DNA of 64,000 bases from Plicaturopsis crispa FD-325 SS-3 (lineage: Eukaryota; Basidiomycota; Agaricomycetes; Amylocorticiales; Amylocorticiaceae), in contig KN832558.1 of assembly GCA_000827205.1 (NCBI GenBank), positions 832,509 through 896,508 of the forward strand. The letters are read 5' to 3'. The position numbers were made by a program, and so were the translations under genes. A model generated the notes under the pieces. It had not been told where the DNA came from. It made no database searches and was given only the letters and a program-made list of their open reading frames with translations. Positions 36,298 to 61,450 of this stretch are shown here, piece after piece. Every line of letters begins with the position of its first letter. The first letter of the stretch is position 1.

Positions 36298-37953
36298 ATG
36301 GTTTACACTTCGAACTCCATGCTCGTTGCCGCCGTCGCTCTCAGCGCACTCACCCCCGCACTCGCTGCTCCGTAAGTCGTGTTTTTTTTATGTGTTCTTC
36401 TCCATGATTCTCAACAATTGTCTTCTAGCCTTGACGCACGGGCATCCACCGCTGCCAAAAGCTCAAGCGCCGGAAAGAGCTCCGGCAGTGGCCTCGGTAG
36501 TTCCATCGCGAGCGCAGCAGCCGGAGGCGCTGCTAACGCGGCTCTCACCCAGGGCATCCAATTCGTCGAGGGTCTCTTCAGCCGTGAGCTCGAGCTCCAG
36601 GAGCGTGCGGCGGCCGCCGGCAAGGCCGCATCCTCGTCTTCCAAGTCGACTGGCAGCGGTATCGGATCAAGCGTCGCAAGTGCCGCTGCAGGTGGTGCGG
36701 CGAATGCTGCCGTTACCCAAGGCATCCAATTCATCGAGGGTCTCTTCAGCCGCGAACTCGAGCTCCAGCAACGCGAGCTCGAGCTTGAGGCGCGCGCTTC
36801 GTCGGCCGGCAAGTCCGTCGGCAGCGGTATCGGGTCCAGCGTAGCAAGCGCTGCTGCAGGTGGTGCCGCGAATGCTGCCGTCACCCAGGGCATCCAGGCT
36901 CTCGAGCGCCTCTTCAGCCGTGAGCTCGAGCTCCAGGAGCGCGCCGCTGCGGCCAAGTCCTCTTCGTCGGCGGGCAAGTCGTCCGGCAGTGGCCTCGGTA
37001 GCTCCATCGCCAGCGCAGCTGCAGGAGGTGCCGCCAACGCGGCTCTCACGCAGGGCATCCAATTCGTTGAGGGTCTCTTCAGCCGTGAGCTCGAGCTCCA
37101 GCAGCGTGAACTCGAGCTCGAGGCGCGCGCCTCGGCGGCTGGCAAGTCCGTTGGCAGCGGTATCGGATCCAGCGTCGCAAGCGCTGCTGCAGGTGGTGCC
37201 GCGAACGCTGCCGTGACCCAGGGCATCCAGGCCCTCGAGCGCCTCTTCAGCCGCGAACTCGAGCTCCGTGAACTCGAGCTCCAGGAGCGCGCCAGCGCTG
37301 CCAAGTCCTCTTCGTCGGCAGGCAAGTCGTCCGGCAGTGGCCTCGGTAGCTCTATCGCGAGCGCAGCTGCAGGAGGTGCCGCCAACGCGGCACTTACCCA
37401 GGGCATCCAATTCGTCGAGGGTCTCTTCAGCCGCGAGCTCGAGCTCCAAGAGCGCGCCGCTGCGGCCAAGTCCTCTTCGTCGGCAGGCAAGTCGTCCGGC
37501 AGTGGTCTCGGTAGCTCTATCGCGAGCGCAGCTGCCGGCGGCGCTGCCAACGCGGCTCTCACCCAGGGCATCCAGTTCGTTGAGGGTCTCTTCAGCCGTG
37601 AGCTCGAGGAGCGCGCCGCCGCTGCCGCGAAGGCCGCCTCCTCCTCAGCTGGCAAGACGTCTTCGTCGTCCGGCAAGTCTATCGGCAGTGGTATCGGATC
37701 CAGCGTTGCAAGCGCTGCTGCAGGTGGTGCCGCCAACGCAGCCGTCACCCAGGGCATCCAGGCCCTCGAGCGTCTCTTCAGCCGTGAGGAGATCGAGGAG
37801 CGTGCGCTCTCCCTTGGCAAGCTTGGAAGCGGGCTCGGTGGACAGGTTGCGAGCGGTGTTGCCGGTGGAGCCGCCAACGCCGCCCTGACCCAGGGCATCC
37901 AGGCCATCGAGGGTTTGTTCAGCCGCGAGTTCGAGCTCGATGAGCTGAACTAG
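36298..37953 (+). CDS. Secreted protein of nine glycine-zipper-like repeats
   Basis: 532 residues, two exons (36298-36371 and 36429-37953). The first exon is a signal peptide: MVYTSNSMLVAAVALSALTP ending ALAAP. The rest is nine copies of a 45-65-residue unit: a Ser/Ala/Lys linker, then SG(L/I)GSS(I/V)ASAAAGGAAN with AA(L/V)TQGIQ following, then LFSRELEL and charged ELELQER-type helices. Two unit types occur: L-type (SGLGSSIAS, ALTQGIQFVEGLFSRE) and I-type (SGIGSSVAS, AVTQGIQALERLFSRE); unit 9 is a variant. The G-x3-G and A-x3-G spacing resembles glycine zippers, so membrane association or self-assembly is possible (inference). No Kex2 KR/RR sites lie between units. No family recognised. Confidence 0.8.
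36481..37950 (+). repeat. In-gene tandem repeat array (nine units)
   Basis: DNA-level repeats of roughly 140-190 bp underlying the repeat protein. Copies of the same type share long identical blocks, pointing to recent duplication or gene conversion. Copy number is likely to vary between strains. Confidence 0.75.
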
Positions 37954-40527: not shown

Positions 40528-40536
40528 GGTATTGCA
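40528..40536. repeat. Left target-site duplication GGTATTGCA
   Basis: Nine bases directly outside the left end of the mobile element, identical to and in the same orientation as 46682-46690. This is the expected footprint of staggered-cut integration. Confidence 0.85.
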
Positions 40537-40769
40537 CAGGCTCCTACCAAGCCGCTGTTCGAGGGTGGGGGGCCCATGCAAGTACGATACTCAGTGTAAA
40601 TACCAGAATTCAGACCATGTGCAAACCATGCGACCCCCACGCGCAAATTCAAACTCCCCCAACTTTCCCCCTCCACCCTCTCTACAGCGGCTTGCATATA
40701 ACATCTGTAAACATTGCGCCACCGAATAGCCACAGGTCCACGGTACCGTGCTTTTCGCCGCGTCGCGCG
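40537..40769 (+). repeat. Left terminal inverted repeat
   Basis: 233 bp, complementary to 46453-46681. The outer 41 bp and the inner 100 bp are nearly identical to the other end, while about 60 bp between them have diverged. It contains its own inverted repeat (40548-40572 against 40667-40694, sharing CAAGCCGCTGT) and a CATATAA motif near 40694 that may act as core promoter. Confidence 0.85.
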
Positions 40770-40818
40770 CCCTTTTGCAAAAGCGCGTCGAACTCGAATT
40801 CGAACGCCTCAGCTCACC

Positions 40819-43520
40819 ATGGATAATGTACCACCAAAGCCTCCTAAAAGACCCCTTCCATCTCTGCTAGAAATCAGGGAGAAAACTTTCAAGCTCCTTG
40901 GCCACAGACCCTGCTTGTGGCAGATCCGAGCAGTTGAGGCAATTTTAAAACACGACCAAGACGTCGTGTGCATCTCCGCGACGGGGTCGGGGAAGACTCT
41001 GACGTTCTGGATGCCTCTGCTATTTACCCAGGGCATACAGGTGATCATTACCCCTCTGAACCTGCTCGGAAATCAAAATGTGCAGGATTTGGCACGCCTT
41101 GGTATTCCTGCCATTGCCATAGATGCCAACACAGCGACAGCGGAAAATTTTAGGGTGAGTGGACAGATAGGCTTCGTCATGTTACTGCAGCTTGACACCA
41201 GTTTTAGGATATTGCAGACCTGAAATACCGTGTAGTCGTGACAAACATCGAGCTTGCGTTGAAAGACGGCAACGGTTTTGGAAAGCTGTGGAAGACTTCA
41301 AACTTCGCTTCGCGCATTATCAGTGTGATCTGGGATGAAGCCCACTGTATCAGCAAGTGGGGAAACTTTCGGCCCGAATACAAGGACGCTGGACGCCTTC
41401 GCTACCTTCTACCCCCCGGCGTTCGGTACTTCATCACATCCGCAACGCTTCCTCCGTTGGTTCTGAATGATGTTCTCGACATCCTCCAAATACGGAAGGA
41501 AAAAGCCCACATGATACATCGCTCAAACGACCGGCCAAATGTGTACGTTGTCGTGCGGGAGATGGCATATCCGCTCAACAGTTTCCGCGACCTCGACTTC
41601 CTCATTCCGAAGAACTGGAAAGCCGGCGACAAGCCACCAAAGTTCCTCATCTTCTTCGACAACATCACGGACTCTATCGCGGCTGCAAAACATCTGCGAG
41701 AAATGTTGCCACCCGAGCTACGTGGCATGCTTAAGTGGTTCAACGCTGATATGTCGCCAACCTTTCGTGTCGACGAGTCGGAGGGTCTGAAGCAGAGTCA
41801 GATTTGGGGCCTCGCATGCACTGACTCATTCGGAATGGTATGTGTGCACATCATGTTTTTATATGTGAGCTCTACTAATTTTCGTTCCGGAATATAGGGG
41901 ATCGACCTCTCAGATATTGAGGTTGTTATCCAATGGAGAGCGACATGCGATATGTGCACATTGTGGCAGAGATTTGGCTGAGGGGCGCGCAGTCATTTGC
42001 GCGTGGCCATTGCACTGTTCCTCGTAGAACCTAAATATTTCGATGCGCAGCGAGCAAAGAAGGCTGAACGGAAAGCGAAAAAGGATGAGAAGGGGTTGAA
42101 GAAACGCAAAGCAGAGAGCAACTCACTCGTGGCGTCAATGCCTTCCTCGAAGAGAGCTCGCACAACGAAGACCCCAGTAGCATCTACTGCGATGCGCGCA
42201 CACCAAACCACGCCCGCTGTGGCACAGCCGGCACAGACGACTTCAGACGCCGAGGGACATTCCGGCGTTGGAAGCACAGGGACGGAGGTGGAACACGCCG
42301 AGGATACACGAGCCGAGAAGAACGCCGAGAGACGCGCACGATACAGCCAAGCTGCAATAGTCAAGAAGGAGCCCAAGAATGGCAAGTCCGCAGACGGAGA
42401 ATTGGAGCCTGCCATCGATGACATGATCAACGCTGGCACTCGACCTGGACTGCACTGCTCGCGCCTTCCAGCAATGCTGTATTTCGAGAACGATACCACT
42501 GGTGAGCTTGTAGTACCAGACTTCTTTGCCCATGCGCAGAACTGACCGTTACCTCATTGAAATCAGTATCTGATCATCTCGAATGCGACCCTAACACGCC
42601 CGGAGGATGCCGTCGCTGTCGTGTCGTGCCCTCCACGGTCTGCTGTGACCTTTGCAACCCAGCGCACTTCACCGATTTTGCTCGCGTCGATCTCGAAAAA
42701 CCAAAGCAGGCACCAAACCGCTCTCGCATCGACAGAAACTACACGGCGTCAGCTCACGACATGGCTCTTCGTGACGATCTCAACGAATTCCGTGAGGAGC
42801 AGACAATCACACGGTTTGGCAGGGCACATTTCCGAAATCTTGGTCCTGGTGAGATTATGTCGGACGAGGTGCTAAAGGATATTGTAGATTTCGCCCACCA
42901 CCAGAAAATCGCTACCAAGGAGGAGCTAGAGAAAGAGACGAAGTGGCAACGTGTAGAGGAATACGGCAGCAAAGTGTTGCAGCTCATAGCAAGACATTGC
43001 ACAGTTCCTCCACCTCCGCCTCCGCATTCCACATCCGCATCGTCTAGCCACACGCCGCTGCAGCCACGCCGAGCCGTTACGAACAACGGGCCGCCAATGG
43101 ATCACACCGGGGCAGAGCTCACTCCCGCAAAGGCCAAGCGCGTCCATTCGTGCAAGGCCTGCGGCGCATCAGGTCACATAGGTGCGTCTATCTTTATGGT
43201 AGTCCTCGGACTGTTCTAACTATCGTTCTGCCTGAAATTTAGCGTCCAACCGACTGTGTCCCAAAAACCCCAAAAACCCACGAGTGCAAGAGTCGTCTAC
43301 TACGACTGCTAGTGTCCCCACGCAGCGTACAGACGAGAATTTGCCGCCACTGAGTGCAGCAGGTTCTGTGGGCAGTATCTACGAGCCTCCGCCATCTACC
43401 ACTTCAACAGCCCATCCTGAAGACGACGACACAGCGACTCCAGCATCACATACAGTCCACACGGCAATCGCTCTCGCAAACGTATCTGGTTCTACGGCCT
43501 CGATTTCACGCACTTGTTAA
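40819..43520 (+). pseudogene. RecQ-like helicase with zinc-knuckle tail, one in-frame stop
   Basis: Five exons (40819-41154, 41208-41837, 41898-42501, 42567-43181, 43243-43520), 820 codons. Superfamily 2 helicase motifs in order: I ISATGSGKT; Ib/II VVVTNIEL and VIWDEAHCISKW (DEAH box); III FITSATLPP; V TDSFGMGIDLSD, spanning an intron; VI begins QRFG. The next codon is TGA (41979-41981) where the motif normally has Arg; the frame then continues with GAR and ALFLVEPKYFD, so this looks like one nonsense change. Further on are a Cys cluster (GGCRRC, VCCDLCNP), a long polar linker, and a zinc-knuckle-like CKACGASGH-x6-C interrupted by the last intron. RecQ enzymes unwind 3'-5'. It probably served the element's mobility. 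Truncated at the stop, it would lack part of the second RecA domain. Confidence 0.82.
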
Positions 43521-43595
43521 GTGCGAAATTCATATCCTCGTACGCCCAGCCGATAAGTTTCCTGGTCTCCGACTGATGTACTGTACAATGTGCAT

Positions 43596-46403
43596 TCAGA
43601 TATCTTCTCCCGCAACATCGTCGACCTCTACACTTCGTTCACCTTCCTCTTCACCGTCAACCTCTGTAGCCGCACTGCCTGTTCCCATCGCGTGTAGCAT
43701 GTGTTCTCCTCGGTCAATTACATTCGGAATTGAATATGCTGTTCCTCGTGCGGGCTTATGTGTGTTCGGCTCGTGCCTCTGAAGATGAGCAGCCAGTAAC
43801 ATAAGTGTGCGCGTTATATCTGCCTGTACATGGGCTGCAATCGGGGGTGCTAGGCCAAGGTTTTGGGCCATATTTTCGTGGCAGCGACGGTAAATTTGGA
43901 TTAGCGTGGACTCTTTCTGAACACGTTCCTTGGTGTAATTGGAATCCTTTCCTCCGTGAACAAACTGTGGAAGACATGAGTGAGCATATACTGTTTCGGG
44001 GACGCGCCGAGGCTCGGGGAGTCTATATCTATAACACACCTTTGTATCAAGGTTTTGTTTCTCCTCAACCCAGTCCGGAGCGCGAAATTTGCCTGGTTTT
44101 CCTGTCGGATTTACGAGCATATGATACCGAATAGCATGCCTGCATACACCTGATTAGTCTTTTGCCGTGAACAAACGTTTTCGGGAGAGCCACTCACTTG
44201 AGGTCTTTCGGATAGACAAAATGAACGTCTGTCATGAATGTTGTCATGTGCGTCGCATACTTGTGCTTTCCCGTGGCCTTGAAGATATAAATCCACGGCA
44301 AGAAAAGGGTCTCAACGCGGCCGATGTCCCCCTCGTTCATTGCGTAGGACATTTCTTCGTATAGAAGGAAATATTGTTGCATGAGAAGAACATTCTCGTG
44401 CTGCTGGTCACGAACGGCCGATGGTTTTGAGCGCAATCGGTATATGTCATTCCCGCCAGCAACGTAGTTGACGGCGAGATAATCAGCAAGTTCCTCCAAC
44501 TGCCTCACCGTGGGCTCCGTTGCGGCAAAGTCGTCCAGCGTCAATGTTACGGTCGATGCCGCCAAGTCGCCTGGCAAAGCTGTTGCGCGTTTGCGCTTCT
44601 GCACCTCGGTTCGCCATGCATCGAGTCGAAGAGCAATGCCGTCGTGGCCAATGACTTCATGCATGCGTCGAAATCCCGGATCCGACCCTATTTTACCCGT
44701 CTCTTTCTGACGATGCAGTCCAAGATATTGCATGAGGCTGTTCGGGTCCTCTCGTGCACGTTTTGGCTCGATAAATATCCGCCACAGCGCATCTGCGCAC
44801 GCCATCTTTAGGTGGAACAATCCCATAACAAAAATAACGAATTGGTAGCGCCGCCATGGAGTTTTCTCGATCGACCGGCGCTCGAGGAGACTTTTAACGC
44901 GCTCGCCAGTCCCAAGGTCCCCAAAAAATAGGGCGACGAATTCGCGGATGTCCTCTAGTTCTGACTCCCAAGGAGTTGACTCGGACTCCTCTGTGGGGTC
45001 GCCGACACCGCCCTGATGGAGCAGATTCGCAATTGCGTCAATCTGGCCGGACACTTTTGCCTCGTTGATGTCCATCGCTTGTGCAGGAGCGTACTGCAGT
45101 TTTGTAACGGGGATCTTCTCGATGGTTTCGGGCTCGCCGAGGGTGGCTTTGAAGCGTCGAAAATAAGCCGGACCGTAGCTATAGAGATCGTGCCGAAATT
45201 TCCAGGAGTTGTAGCGCTCACGACGTGTAAGGCCAGAAGGGTGGTCGGCTTCTGGGTGCAGCTTTTTCAGGTCGGCGGCGGTATGTGGGGCGGGAAGTTT
45301 AGACGCATCGAGCAGGGGGTTCAGTCGTGATTTCTGCCAAAGCAGCTCTGAGCAGCGAAGATGCTCACGGGTTACGCCGTGTTCGAGGACAATCAAGGTG
45401 CCCGATGTCATGTGCGTGAGCGTGTCGGAAGAGTTCTCGACGGTGGCCATGGAACGTTTGAAATTGATATCAAAGTTATCGTAAATATAACCGACGCGGA
45501 GAGTACGGCCCATGGCTGCAAGAGTCCTGCGCGTTTCGTTCGACAGCGAAGTGATGGCATTGTGAATCGTATTCCCCGAGATACAAACGCCCATGCGCGC
45601 GAGGGCTTCAATAACTCTCTCAGGGGTGTTGCACGAATGGCAGAATACACCGACCATGCTTTGAAAGGCGTTGCATTTTTGATTCGTAGTGTTCATCATG
45701 ATATTCAAGACAACTACTGTTCTCTACAAGAGTGTTTATCTCGTTAGTGTGATCATTGGTGCCCGATCAAAGAGAATGTGCTCACAACGCGTACAAGAAT
45801 ACGCCGACGCGCAACACCAGGTGCTCGCCGCTGCCGTTGCTCTTGCGGAGTGGCACCGTCAAATGTCTCGGTGGTGACGTCGTCAACCTCCGCCCAAAGT
45901 GCCGCCTCGTCGGCTGGGATTCCTGCATCGTCGTCTGTGCTGGCATCGTGCATGACTTGATCTCCATCTCGATCGAGACGCTTTTCTCGCGCAGACACTT
46001 TATCTCTGGCCGTGAGCAGTGTGTCCAGTAAATCCCACAGCTCCGGAGCTTGTCCTTCCATTTTCTTCGCCATCTCCTCTATGCGAAAGGCCTCCAGCTC
46101 CGCCGCCGATGCGTTGATGGCTCCGAAATGCCAACCGCTGCCCTTGTCGGACAACTCTTGTACGGACTCCGTGTACTTTCTTTTCATCGTCGTGTGGGCC
46201 CATGACAGAGCTAATTCGGCAGTTTTCTTCGAGCATAATAACGCGGCTTGTATCTCATCATGCGACTCTGCGACGTCGCGGTAAGAGGGATGGTTTTCGA
46301 AGGATTTGTCTTCCAGAAGACCCAGGAGTAATTCTGAGACAGATAGATTGTTCTCTAGCAGAACTTGGAGCGTTTTGGCGACACGTTCCCGACGCGAAGC
46401 CAT
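43596..46403 (-). CDS. DUF6589 protein, candidate recombinase of the element
   Basis: 870 residues from four exons (46403-45786, 45723-44198, 44139-44040, 43964-43596), intact. The N-terminal 200 residues are helical and charged. The DUF6589 region begins VRVRTVVVLNIMMNTTNQKC with NAFQSMVGVFCHSC, as in the family, then VGYIYDNFDINFKR, GVTREHLRCSELLWQKSRLN, FVIFVMGLFHLKMACADALW, a conserved GHDGIALRLDAW segment, LFLPWIYIFKATGKHKYATH, and the end region ending in GGKDSNYTKERVQKES. Several invariant acidic residues (D in YDNFD, E/D around the ALW and GHDG segments) could form an RNase H-like active site; this is inference. The C-terminal tail is acidic. The ATG at 46403 is the first in frame after the inverted repeat. 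Confidence 0.82.
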
Positions 46404-46452
46404 GTAGTCCAAGTCCTGCTTAGAGCAGTAGGCAGCGCTAGCGGCAATTCGA

Positions 46453-46681
46453 CGCGCGACGCGGCGAAAAGCACGGTGCAGTGGACCTGTGGCTATTCGG
46501 TGGCGCAATGTTTACAAATGTTATATGCAAGCCGCTGTAGAGAGGGTGGAGGGAGAAAAGTTGGGGGAGTTTGAATTTACACGTGGATGGCACATGGTTG
46601 GATTTCTGTCTATTATAATCAACGTGAGTGGCGTACTCGTATGGGCCCCCCACCCTCGAACAGCGGCTTGGTAGGAGCCTG
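46453..46681 (-). repeat. Right terminal inverted repeat
   Basis: 229 bp, inverted copy of 40537-40769, with the same internal inverted repeat (46528-46555 against 46646-46670) and the same CATATAA-like motif. Its inner edge lies 50 bp from the DUF6589 start codon, the same distance as on the left side. Confidence 0.85.
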
Positions 46682-46690
46682 GGTATTGCA
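46682..46690. repeat. Right target-site duplication GGTATTGCA
   Basis: Perfect direct copy of 40528-40536, immediately outside the right end of the element. Confidence 0.85.
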
Positions 46691-47299
46691 GCGTCAGCTC
46701 GCCATGGTGGACGAGGGTGTTCTTCGAATGGACCCGGATGTATGCGGAACCAGCCGCGCAAATGATGTCAGCGCCGAACAACGTCGCGGGGAAGATGTTA
46801 CGCAGAGAGTACTGGAAGCAACGTCGACACCCGGTCAACAGGAGTCTTCAGCTCGATCCACGCATGAAAACGCTCACCGACACTCATACAACCCCATTGC
46901 CAAAGTGATTGTGTACATTGCTACGTATTTTCTCGCAACGTCTGCGGTCCTAGTTAGGATTTCCGAGTTCCCGCCACAGAGCGTGTCCCCGAAGCATACG
47001 ACGCATGCTGTAAGCGCTCAAGACAGCCACCAGTCTGAAAAATCATAGAAAACGTTGAGCTCGACCAGAGCTCGACGCTCGTTGAAACTTGACAGAAACG
47101 TCGAGGATGGTCGTGTACAAGGGGAGATCCGAAGTCCGACCGAACACGACAGAAGGCGGCAGACTGATGTAAACACAGGCACATAGTCTGGCTGCCTCAG
47201 CCACCACGAAGGCGACCGCAATGGCCCATATTGTCTCTTGCTTTCGACCACAACAATCGCTATTCTTCCTGCTCTCTGGGCCATTTCGGCGTCTCAGAC
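46691..47299. other. Gap between element and double-RING gene
   Basis: The first 200 bp after the element are open in several frames on both strands (GC-rich), so the element may have landed in or near an old coding sequence, but no frame is convincing. The right part is promoter and leader of the RING gene. Confidence 0.35.
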
Positions 47300-49819
47300 A
47301 TGGATAACATTGACCATGGTGACTTTGCACACGCTTTCCACAACTTCTGGCGCGGTCTCCTCGCACCGCAAGACCACCACGACGACCAGGACGATATGGA
47401 CGAGGATCTGCCTCCTTTAGAGCCTATTTCATCCTCTAATCAGCCTCAGGAGCACGGAGATGATGACTTTGACGACCCAGAACTGCCAGCTCTCGAGCCC
47501 ATAGTGTCGCAGTCAAATACCAGCTCCCGTCCACAGGATGTGTCAATGACCGATAACAACACTATCCGAGGCCCCCTCACTGCGGAGAACCTCGCCTCGC
47601 TTCGTCCACCTCGTAACGATGACGAGGATTCCATGCCAGATCTTCAATCCGTGTCTGACGCCACCTCGGACATGTCCGACGAGGACTCAAGTCGGGACGT
47701 CGACGAGGTCGAAATGATGCCCGACCTACAACCCGTAGATGACGATAATGACTCTTCATGGACAGATGAGGAGGATGACACTCATATCCCTCCCCTGGAG
47801 TCAATTCCACGCGGCAACAGGCGTGCACGCGTCGATGACGATGAAGACGAGGAGCGGGATCGTAGGCACCCGTTCCAGCGCGCAGGTGGGACGAACGCCC
47901 CTAACCCAGGGAACGCTCCACCGCCGTTGGGTCCTATGCCAGGCTTCCCGTTCGCGGGTCTCCATGGCGGGGGCCCGGGACCTATGCCGAACGCTTTCCG
48001 TATGTTCCAACAGATGTTCGGTGCCGGAACGCCAGGCGCCAACCCACCGCCTGAGCAGCCACCTGGCGCCCACGCGCATCATAATCAGCCTCAGGCCTTT
48101 GGTGCCGCTGGTTTTGCAATCCTCATGGATCAGAACGGTGTCCCTCTAGGCCCTCCACATCCTCTTCCCTTCCCGCGCGGTGACCCTGGACACCCGCATC
48201 ACCACGCCCACGATCATATGCATGGTCCTGCGGACTTCTTTGGACCCCCTCCGCCGGGCGGAGAAGACGCGAACTTGACTTTTGCAGAATTTCTCCATCG
48301 CATGGGCGCGGGAATGGGTTTTGGCGTAGAGGACCGCGAAGATCCTGAGCGCGCGCGGCGGTTAGTGAGTGGACTTGAAGAGGTGCCGGTGGGCTTGATT
48401 AAGCGAATGGAGCGGGTGGGCGGGGCCCCAGGTGCACATTTTGACGGGACGGATGGTGTGGATGTACCCGGGTGTGCGGTATGCTGGGATGCGTTGCTCG
48501 ACACGGAGAACGAGGGATTCAAGGTGAAAGCGCCCGCAGCGGCTGAGACGCAAGACTCGCAGCCAGAGACGTCTACTGCAGGTGCAGGCGATGATTCGAC
48601 GATGGAGACGGATGCACCTACAGGAGCTGCGGCCCCTTCTACGGCACCCGCTCAGCCAAAGTCTGAGCCGGAGCTGCCGAAAATCGTTGCGCTTCCGTGC
48701 GCCCATGTTTTCCACTCAGCGTGCCTCATTCCTTGGTTTTCACGACCCAACCAAACCACATGCCCCACCTGCCGATTCAACATCGATCCGGAGAATCTTA
48801 CCTATGTCCATAGGCCCCGCCAAGCTAGACCCAGACCCGGGCCTCGCGCGCCTTTTCAACCGCAGCCCGCGGCCGATGCGCCCCCTCCAGCAGGTATTCC
48901 TCAGCCTGCGAACCCTCCTCCTCCCAATGGTCAACCACAGCCGGATATCCGTCCTGCGGCTCCAGCAGTCACACCGCATGCAAATGCCATACACCCTGCT
49001 ACTATTCTGTCACACGTTACCACTCCTGATGGTATCCCTGTACCTCCGACTGGTAACCCTGCGAGTCGTCCTGTTGACATCAATGCAGGTCATGTTCCCC
49101 AGCCCAACGCAGCCCCTCCTATCAACAATGCCGCGCAACCTCCCCCCGGGCCAGGGCCTCAACCACAACCTGGTACCCTACCGGGAGCTGGCGCATTCTT
49201 CACCGTTGATTTCAACATTTTTGTTGGGCCGGGTCTCGCTGGCGGTGACATGGACGGTGACATGGTTCCCGACCCGCGATTCGATTTCACCGATCTTCTC
49301 ATGGGTCGCAATGGCATAAATACTCCCAACACGAATCCACCCTTCCAATTTGATCTCGGAGTGGGCGTCCCTCCGGCTGGCGGTCCCAACGTCCGGTTCA
49401 ATGGTGCGCCCCCGCCGTTCTCGAGAGCCCGTTCCTCGCAACCCGGCGTGAAGCGGGAGTGGACACTCCCGTCCGCACCGGGGCCGACGCTTCGGCAGCG
49501 AATTGAGCAGAAGGAGCGCGAAGAGGGGTTGCGGTGCTTCGATGTGAGCTGTGGCGTCGGGCCCTCGGACGAGGACCCTTTCCCTGACCGCGCGGACATG
49601 CCGAAGCAGGTGTCAATTGCGTCGCATAACGGCACCGGTCCTGTGTGCAAGCACACGTTCCATCCGGGGTGCCTGGTCAGCGCTGAGCGCGTTGCGGGGT
49701 GGGGTGAAGAGGATAAGAACATGGATGGCGACACCGTCGAAGTGTCGTGTCCGGTGTGCAGGGAAATCGGTTGTATATCGAAGGCTGAGTGGGAGGAGGG
49801 CGCCAGGGCGTTGGCCTGA
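47300..49819 (+). CDS. Large protein with two RING-type zinc domains
   Basis: Probable ubiquitin ligase of 839 residues in a single exon, unusual here where most genes have many introns. The N-terminal 200 residues are strongly acidic with three repeats of the type DLPPLEPI, ELPALEPI, HIPPLESI. A Pro/Gly/His-rich stretch follows. RING 1 is a RING-H2 form with a long insert: CAVCWDALLD, then about 65 low-complexity residues, then LPCAHVFHSACLIPWF and CPTCR. A Pro/Gln/Asn-rich linker leads to a second, C-terminal zinc domain: CFDVSCG, then VCKHTFHPGCL, then VSCPVCREIGC. The ATG at 47300 is the first in frame. Acidic LEP-type repeats may be interaction motifs. Substrate unknown. Confidence 0.85.
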   Translation: MDNIDHGDFAHAFHNFWRGLLAPQDHHDDQDDMDEDLPPLEPISSSNQPQEHGDDDFDDPELPALEPIVSQSNTSSRPQDVSMTDNNTIRGPLTAENLASLRPPRNDDEDSMPDLQSVSDATSDMSDEDSSRDVDEVEMMPDLQPVDDDNDSSWTDEEDDTHIPPLESIPRGNRRARVDDDEDEERDRRHPFQRAGGTNAPNPGNAPPPLGPMPGFPFAGLHGGGPGPMPNAFRMFQQMFGAGTPGANPPPEQPPGAHAHHNQPQAFGAAGFAILMDQNGVPLGPPHPLPFPRGDPGHPHHHAHDHMHGPADFFGPPPPGGEDANLTFAEFLHRMGAGMGFGVEDREDPERARRLVSGLEEVPVGLIKRMERVGGAPGAHFDGTDGVDVPGCAVCWDALLDTENEGFKVKAPAAAETQDSQPETSTAGAGDDSTMETDAPTGAAAPSTAPAQPKSEPELPKIVALPCAHVFHSACLIPWFSRPNQTTCPTCRFNIDPENLTYVHRPRQARPRPGPRAPFQPQPAADAPPPAGIPQPANPPPPNGQPQPDIRPAAPAVTPHANAIHPATILSHVTTPDGIPVPPTGNPASRPVDINAGHVPQPNAAPPINNAAQPPPGPGPQPQPGTLPGAGAFFTVDFNIFVGPGLAGGDMDGDMVPDPRFDFTDLLMGRNGINTPNTNPPFQFDLGVGVPPAGGPNVRFNGAPPPFSRARSSQPGVKREWTLPSAPGPTLRQRIEQKEREEGLRCFDVSCGVGPSDEDPFPDRADMPKQVSIASHNGTGPVCKHTFHPGCLVSAERVAGWGEEDKNMDGDTVEVSCPVCREIGCISKAEWEEGARALA

Positions 49820-61250: not shown

Positions 61251-61450
61251 GATGCAGCAGGTTACCGTTGGCGCTGCCATATCTTATGCATCACATTGCC
61301 GTTGACACCTTGAGCACCGAATACGGCGCGCAACCGCTGTGATGTATCATGTTACCATCGTCGGCGCTGCCATATCTTATGCATCCCATTGCCGTTGACA
61401 CCTTGAGCACCGAATACGGCGCGAAACCGCTGTGATGTATCATGTTACCG
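61251..61450. repeat. Minisatellite, about 90-bp unit
   Basis: Two full copies (61251-61340 and 61341-61433) and a partial third share GGCGCTGCCATATCTTATGC, GCCGTTGACACCTTGAGCAC and CGAATACGGCGCG. Degenerate copies with ATTACCGTTGGCACC extend left to about 61090. Confidence 0.75.

Follow-up and report, generated by a model that had tools for sequence, protein, structure and literature searches.

The question raised by the DNA examined here, a window of 64,000 nucleotides from the basidiomycete Plicaturopsis crispa FD-325 SS-3 (contig KN832558.1, positions 832,509 to 896,508), is what kind of mobile element carries a RecQ-like helicase gene and a DUF6589 gene between long inverted ends, and whether such a combination belongs to a type already described. 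The analysis indicates that the unit at window positions 40537-46681 is a real transposon and, very likely, a copy of an AcademH-type helicase-encoding element in which DUF6589 serves as the DDE transposase, the match to AcademH being one of description.

Element boundaries, related ends and target-site duplications

The span of the element (6145 bp) was established by direct reading and repeat search, in agreement with the unit and coordinates proposed in a first-pass annotation made from the sequence alone. That annotation had also described inverted termini with the outermost 41 bp identical at both ends, which the repeat search confirmed, the ends proving to be imperfect inverted repeats of ∼240 bp with arms of 57, 25, 48 and 123 nt and complementarities of 93, 80, 83 and 91%, respectively. 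The left terminal inverted repeat (40537-40778, plus strand), which starts with CAGGCTCCTACCAAGCCGC, and the right (46444-46681, minus strand) were both delimited by repeat search and genome search. When the 41-bp terminus was sought in the 33.2-Mb genome with up to three mismatches, only the two element ends were recovered, and a reversed control pattern gave no match. The perfect 9-bp direct repeat reported at first pass was likewise present, the word GGTATTGCA occurring twice within the window, as left (40528-40536) and right (46682-46690) target-site duplications that directly abut the element ends; these were assessed by direct reading, shuffles and flank comparison. The word alone constitutes weak evidence, since at least two copies of it were also found in 9 of 100 shuffles. 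Its exact abutment at both ends is not weak, because none of 132 comparisons between the left flank of one element and the right flank of another gave agreement over nine bases, every one having at least four mismatches. Between the ends lie only two genes, convergent as first described, encoding the helicase (plus strand) and the DUF6589 protein (minus strand).

A genome search with the terminal 241 bp returned seven matches, including the two window ends; a nonautonomous copy of 1.8 kb was located in this way at C25:91333-93146, and a copy at C7:992856, which has lost its right tip, accounted for three of the matches. A 19-bp terminus, again with up to three mismatches, was found at 31 places compared with 15 for the reversed control, some of them forming close pairs of opposite orientation. 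A second type of terminus (TAG type), TAGGCTCG.../TAGACTCG..., was present at DUF6589 loci on C14, C15, C1 and C2. Twelve complete end pairs were compared, two with CAGGCTCCTACCAAGCCGC ends (window and C25:91333), four with CAGGCTCCTACCCATCCGT ends (C2:3200711, C5:1732706, C8:1356976 and C13:48168), two with CAGGCTCCTACCCACCCGG ends (C5:525630 and C7:558292) and four of the TAG type (C14:633312, C15:208001, C1:215489 and C2:509632). The flanks of all twelve agreed exactly over nine bases, and not at 7, 8, 10 or 11, with no obvious common sequence among the duplications. Loci elsewhere in the genome with related ends and 9-bp duplications, for which the first-pass annotation had proposed a search, are indeed present.

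Seven of the end pairs were defined by their ends alone. The window pair was taken from the first-pass annotation, whereas a duplication was among the requirements of the scan that yielded the C15 pair, the ends of this pair being found afterwards to match those on C14, C1 and C2. The C2:509632 pair, with ends 30 kb apart, was joined via its flanks. For C14 and C1, a single script looked for the second end using both the motif and the flank, and the two criteria led to the same place. A third end on C5 (527059), with the same flank as that at 526455, was counted together with it. The C7:992856 copy, being without a right flank, was excluded from the twelve, as were the ends for which a partner was not found or not sought (C7:992856, C1:2472810, C5:666447, C5:648711, C5:671309, C2:2675828 and C23:152805) and the remaining single hits of the 19-bp search. 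In the TAG group, similarity between the two ends of an element is limited to the tip and a weakly matching inner segment, and long inverted ends are therefore not common to all groups.

Several further observations concern individual copies. One TAG-type element (G000:C2:509632-539822, L042 to L049), with its ends 30 kb apart and a matching 9-bp duplication, AAAAGTCAG, is ∼23 kb longer than its relatives of 7.1-7.6 kb, the excess probably representing nested insertions. Elements ending in CAGGCTCCTACCCATCCGT or CAGGCTCCTACCCACCCGG (C2, C5, C8, C13 and C7) are short and bear 9-bp duplications; their transposase would be supplied by another element. At C5:525630-527059 the right ends at 526455 and 527059 have an equal flank, a pattern suggestive of a local duplication that included some of the element and its flank.

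An inverted repeat was also found within all twelve 200-bp ends analysed (left and right ends of the window, C25, C15, C14, C1 and C2 elements), with the first arm beginning 10-12 bases from the tip and scores (24-37) that in each case exceeded the best of 20 single-base shuffles; these ends are copies from only two groups, and so represent two or few independent cases. In the window element the left subterminal repeat (40548-40694, plus strand) has arms at 40548-40572 and 40669-40694 and a score of 30, compared with 16 for the best of 20 shuffles, while the right (46528-46670, minus strand) has arms at 46646-46670 and 46528-46553 and a score of 30, compared with 18. Five shorter ends (76-80 bp) revealed no subterminal repeat, possibly being too short to include the second arm. 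The repeats might serve as binding sites for the transposase or fold into hairpins.

The insertion site was searched via its right flank only, a 301-bp stretch of which is single-copy in the P. crispa assembly. The strain name, in which SS presumably denotes single spore, suggests that this assembly is haploid, and an empty allele of the site is therefore not expected there.

The DUF6589 protein and its helicase partner

The DUF6589 gene (43596-46403, minus strand), the probable transposase gene, comprises four exons (46403-45786, 45723-44198, 44139-44040 and 43964-43596), and its spliced product of 870 amino acids is 100% identical to PLICRDRAFT_174059 of the same strain. A Pfam DUF6589 match was obtained on the main exon (E 1.4e-67). 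Since the first 29 structure matches of the predicted protein model (predicted local distance difference test score, 87.9) were to RNase H/DDE recombinases only (Hermes, P element, ISCth4, RAG1 and Transib), DUF6589 is very probably the transposase of the element, an RNase H-like recombinase, as had been supposed at first pass. A Foldseek list provided weaker support for the recombinase fold, with unrelated proteins also appearing at E near 0.3 and above. The model predicts a DDE transposase in which the RNase H fold carries a long helical insertion; its RNase H core, with the insertion placed before the last acidic residue, resembles that of hAT (Hermes), RAG1 and Transib proteins, whereas a DUF6589 profile searched against the sequences of solved structures gave nothing significant (best E 0.71).

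Residues D288, D475 and E663, which are conserved among DUF6589 proteins in the sequence sets compared, would be the likely catalytic triad. E677 was considered as the third residue, being invariant in the 77-sequence window set, but was dropped in favour of E663 (or D672) because this position is mostly V, L or I in the other DUF6589 set. D645, E649, D737 and E741 are also retained in both sets. E663 is preferred on account of its position in helix 646-670 of the predicted model, although E649 shares this helix, which makes E663 a tentative choice. With regard to the wider distribution of the protein, a tblastn search against phage records gave no match, and in a protein search aimed at relatives outside fungi the named entries among the matches listed (120 of 448) were all Agaricomycetes, on what we take to be the affiliation of their genus names.

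The partner gene (40819-43520, plus strand) encodes a RecQ-like superfamily 2 helicase in five exons (40819-41154, 41208-41837, 41898-42501, 42567-43181 and 43243-43520) of 820 codons, the reading frame being interrupted just once, by a stop at 41979-41981 (codon 350). The protein resembles RecQ, WRN and BLM, with 36 distinct solved sequences matched at E <= 0.001, and has near its C-terminus a cysteine motif that we take to be zinc-knuckle-like. The region of the stop corresponds to VQRVGRGGR in the related locus L054, presumably motif VI of the helicase. A public gene model, PLICRDRAFT_697180 (807 amino acids, 98% identity), has no Helicase_C match, whereas nearly all relatives among the matches listed (120), inspected by eye, have one; given this absence and the shorter length, the annotation may have avoided the stop by an alternative splice. 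The description of the element as intact-looking thus applies to the transposase gene, which is open, and not to the helicase gene, which is broken in the window copy. Relatives annotated with both helicase domains are present in other species.

Genome-wide, 56 DUF6589 matches and 20 helicase matches were obtained. Visual merging of the former gave 28 loci (one below the family cut-off; C2:515495 and C2:538493, parts of one element, were counted as two). For 17 of the 20 helicase matches a DUF6589 locus is present at a distance of no more than 6 kb, with ∼1% per helicase match expected by chance, and the pairing noted at first pass is thereby upheld: the helicase is a true partner of DUF6589. 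Viewed from the other side, 17 of the 28 DUF6589 loci have a helicase within 6 kb, the genes being convergent in 15 of the pairs and divergent in two (C14 and C15). Both ends were identified at three of these 17 paired loci (window, C14 and C15; 12 others were not end-checked), and element ends were seen at seven of the 28 DUF6589 loci and looked for without success at a few others, the remainder not being covered on both sides. For L054 and C6, the latter with a gap in its sequence, inverted-end alignment scores of 22 and 23 fell within the 21-27 of shuffled L055 controls; the test is a weak one, since C15 (L055), whose ends are established independently, itself scored 25 in this alignment. 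At C24, C2:2027727 and C7:1702324, a scan within individual stretches and not across their borders revealed no recognisable ends of these types. A long inverted repeat (L044, 3910-7297), with 144 shared 13-mers on one diagonal, lies near the C24 DUF6589 locus.

Pairs in other species were read by eye from protein lists, among the matches listed (120 of 388 for DUF6589 and 120 of 6663 for the helicase), with a shared contig deduced from equality of species and length. Neighbouring locus tags were seen in Phlebia brevispora (NM688_g272/g273) and Cerrena zonata (QCA50_004608/004609), and tags separated by one other in Bondarzewia mesenterica (EW146_g2697/g2695). In Leucogyrophana mollusca, Gloeophyllum trabeum and Schizophyllum commune Tattone D, both proteins are on equal contigs of 5.8-6.4 kb. 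The listed entries of Athelia sp. TMB, Trametes cinnabarina and Hypsizygus marmoreus revealed no pairing.

Probable assignment to AcademH and rival explanations

AcademH was reportedly described by Kojima in 2020 (Mob DNA 11:15) as a lineage of helicase-encoding transposons within the Academ superfamily. Target duplications are of 9 or 10 bp in AcademH and 3 or 4 bp in AcademX, a difference related to the presence of a helicase versus a nuclease (PMC10045372); AcademH elements occur at low copy number in Basidiomycota, Ascomycota and Mucoromycota and are listed as one source of DEAD and Helicase_C domains (PMC10799480). Putative nonautonomous Academ elements have been reported from the mushroom Marasmius oreades (PMC8290104). 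The P. crispa element corresponds in the size of its duplication, 9 bp in all twelve end pairs; in the RecQ-like helicase between its ends, broken in the window copy; in its low copy number, with 28 DUF6589 loci in 33.2 Mb; and in a predicted RNase H fold with conserved D288/D475/E663, as would be expected of a DDD/E transposase. None of the features compared differs, the comparison being by description and not by sequence. The first-pass view that no described family combines these parts did not stand, as AcademH is helicase-encoding, fungal and associated with duplications of 9 or 10 bp (PMC10045372, PMC10799480). AcademX, which belongs to the same superfamily as the element if the assignment is right, was rejected, since its duplications are of 3 or 4 bp, with a nuclease (PMC10045372), as opposed to 9 bp and a helicase here.

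The window element is therefore regarded as an additional family member of a type already described as AcademH, and its value as a discovery is correspondingly modest. What the analysis adds is the link between DUF6589 and the transposase, the subterminal inverted repeats at the 12 long ends tested, and the two gene layouts. DUF6589 is a domain of unknown function, often annotated as hypothetical protein in Agaricomycetes, which is now tied to a transposase of predicted fold, to defined ends and to a duplication, such that genes of this kind can be recognised as mobile DNA.

Two points speak for a rival to the AcademH assignment. Named Academ elements were compared by description only, with no direct sequence link, and the word DUF6589 is absent from a full-text literature search, the scope of which did not extend to supplements, so that the link is not shown to be unpublished. 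Both would suit a separate, non-Academ lineage in which the helicase and the 9-bp stagger were gained independently. This is considered unlikely, since the helicase, the 9-bp duplication, the basidiomycete host and the low copy number all fit the AcademH descriptions. Equally little weight is given to the idea that elements with DUF6589 and a RecQ helicase form their own superfamily across Agaricomycetes, with subterminal hairpins that would be opened by their own helicase during transposition.

Long inverted ends and duplications of ∼9 bp are typical of the Mutator-like element (MULE) superfamily, and it is because the P. crispa element has both that this rival was retained. Its probability is nevertheless judged to be very low, as a Pfam scan of eight element open reading frames (E up to 1) assigned the transposase to DUF6589 and matched none of the MULE families, and MULEs are not known to carry a dedicated helicase gene. 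The least probable of the alternatives is KolobokH, which shares with the element the association of a DDE transposase with a RecQ helicase. The target site of Kolobok is TTAA, and Kolobok was rejected in view of the 9-bp duplications, with no obvious common sequence, at all twelve end pairs. KolobokH is known from fungi only and has its RecQ helicase downstream of the transposase domain, whereas the helicase here is a separate gene on the opposite strand; one Kolobok of a red alga, like the P. crispa element, does encode its RecQ helicase on the complementary strand (PMC9587614). The duplications given in PMC12730594 for KDZ/Zisupton (8 bp), Plavaka (2 or 3 bp) and hAT (5 to 8 bp) led to the rejection of all three against 9 bp here, that of hAT despite the Hermes-like predicted fold. 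The inverted ends and target duplication of the element led likewise to the rejection of Helitron.

Proposed mechanism and neighbouring features

For the AcademH-type element, the DUF6589 transposase probably binds the terminal and subterminal repeats and would then pair the two element ends. By analogy with other DDE transposases, cleavage would take place at the CAG...CTG tips, the ends would be joined to target DNA across a 9-base stagger, and gap filling would generate the 9-bp duplication that is observed. The RecQ-like helicase, which travels with the transposase, probably unwinds the ends or hairpins, or else may help in replication or repair of the gap. As the helicase of the window copy is broken, a helicase from elsewhere would be needed, if this activity is essential. 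Transposition may be either cut-and-paste or replicative. The relatives identified here are ones in which the part played by a RecQ-type helicase in transposing DNA might be addressed.

An open frame of 883 amino acids with RING-finger-like cysteine patterns, recognised by eye, lies at window positions 47168-49819 (plus strand) and starts ∼0.5 kb downstream of the insertion, such that the element may occupy the promoter region of that gene. Elsewhere in the window, an open frame of 525 amino acids (36376-37953, plus strand) contains about nine Gly/Ala/Ser-rich repeats of roughly 56 residues, and a 91-bp tandem duplication with 97% identity is located at 61266-61449.
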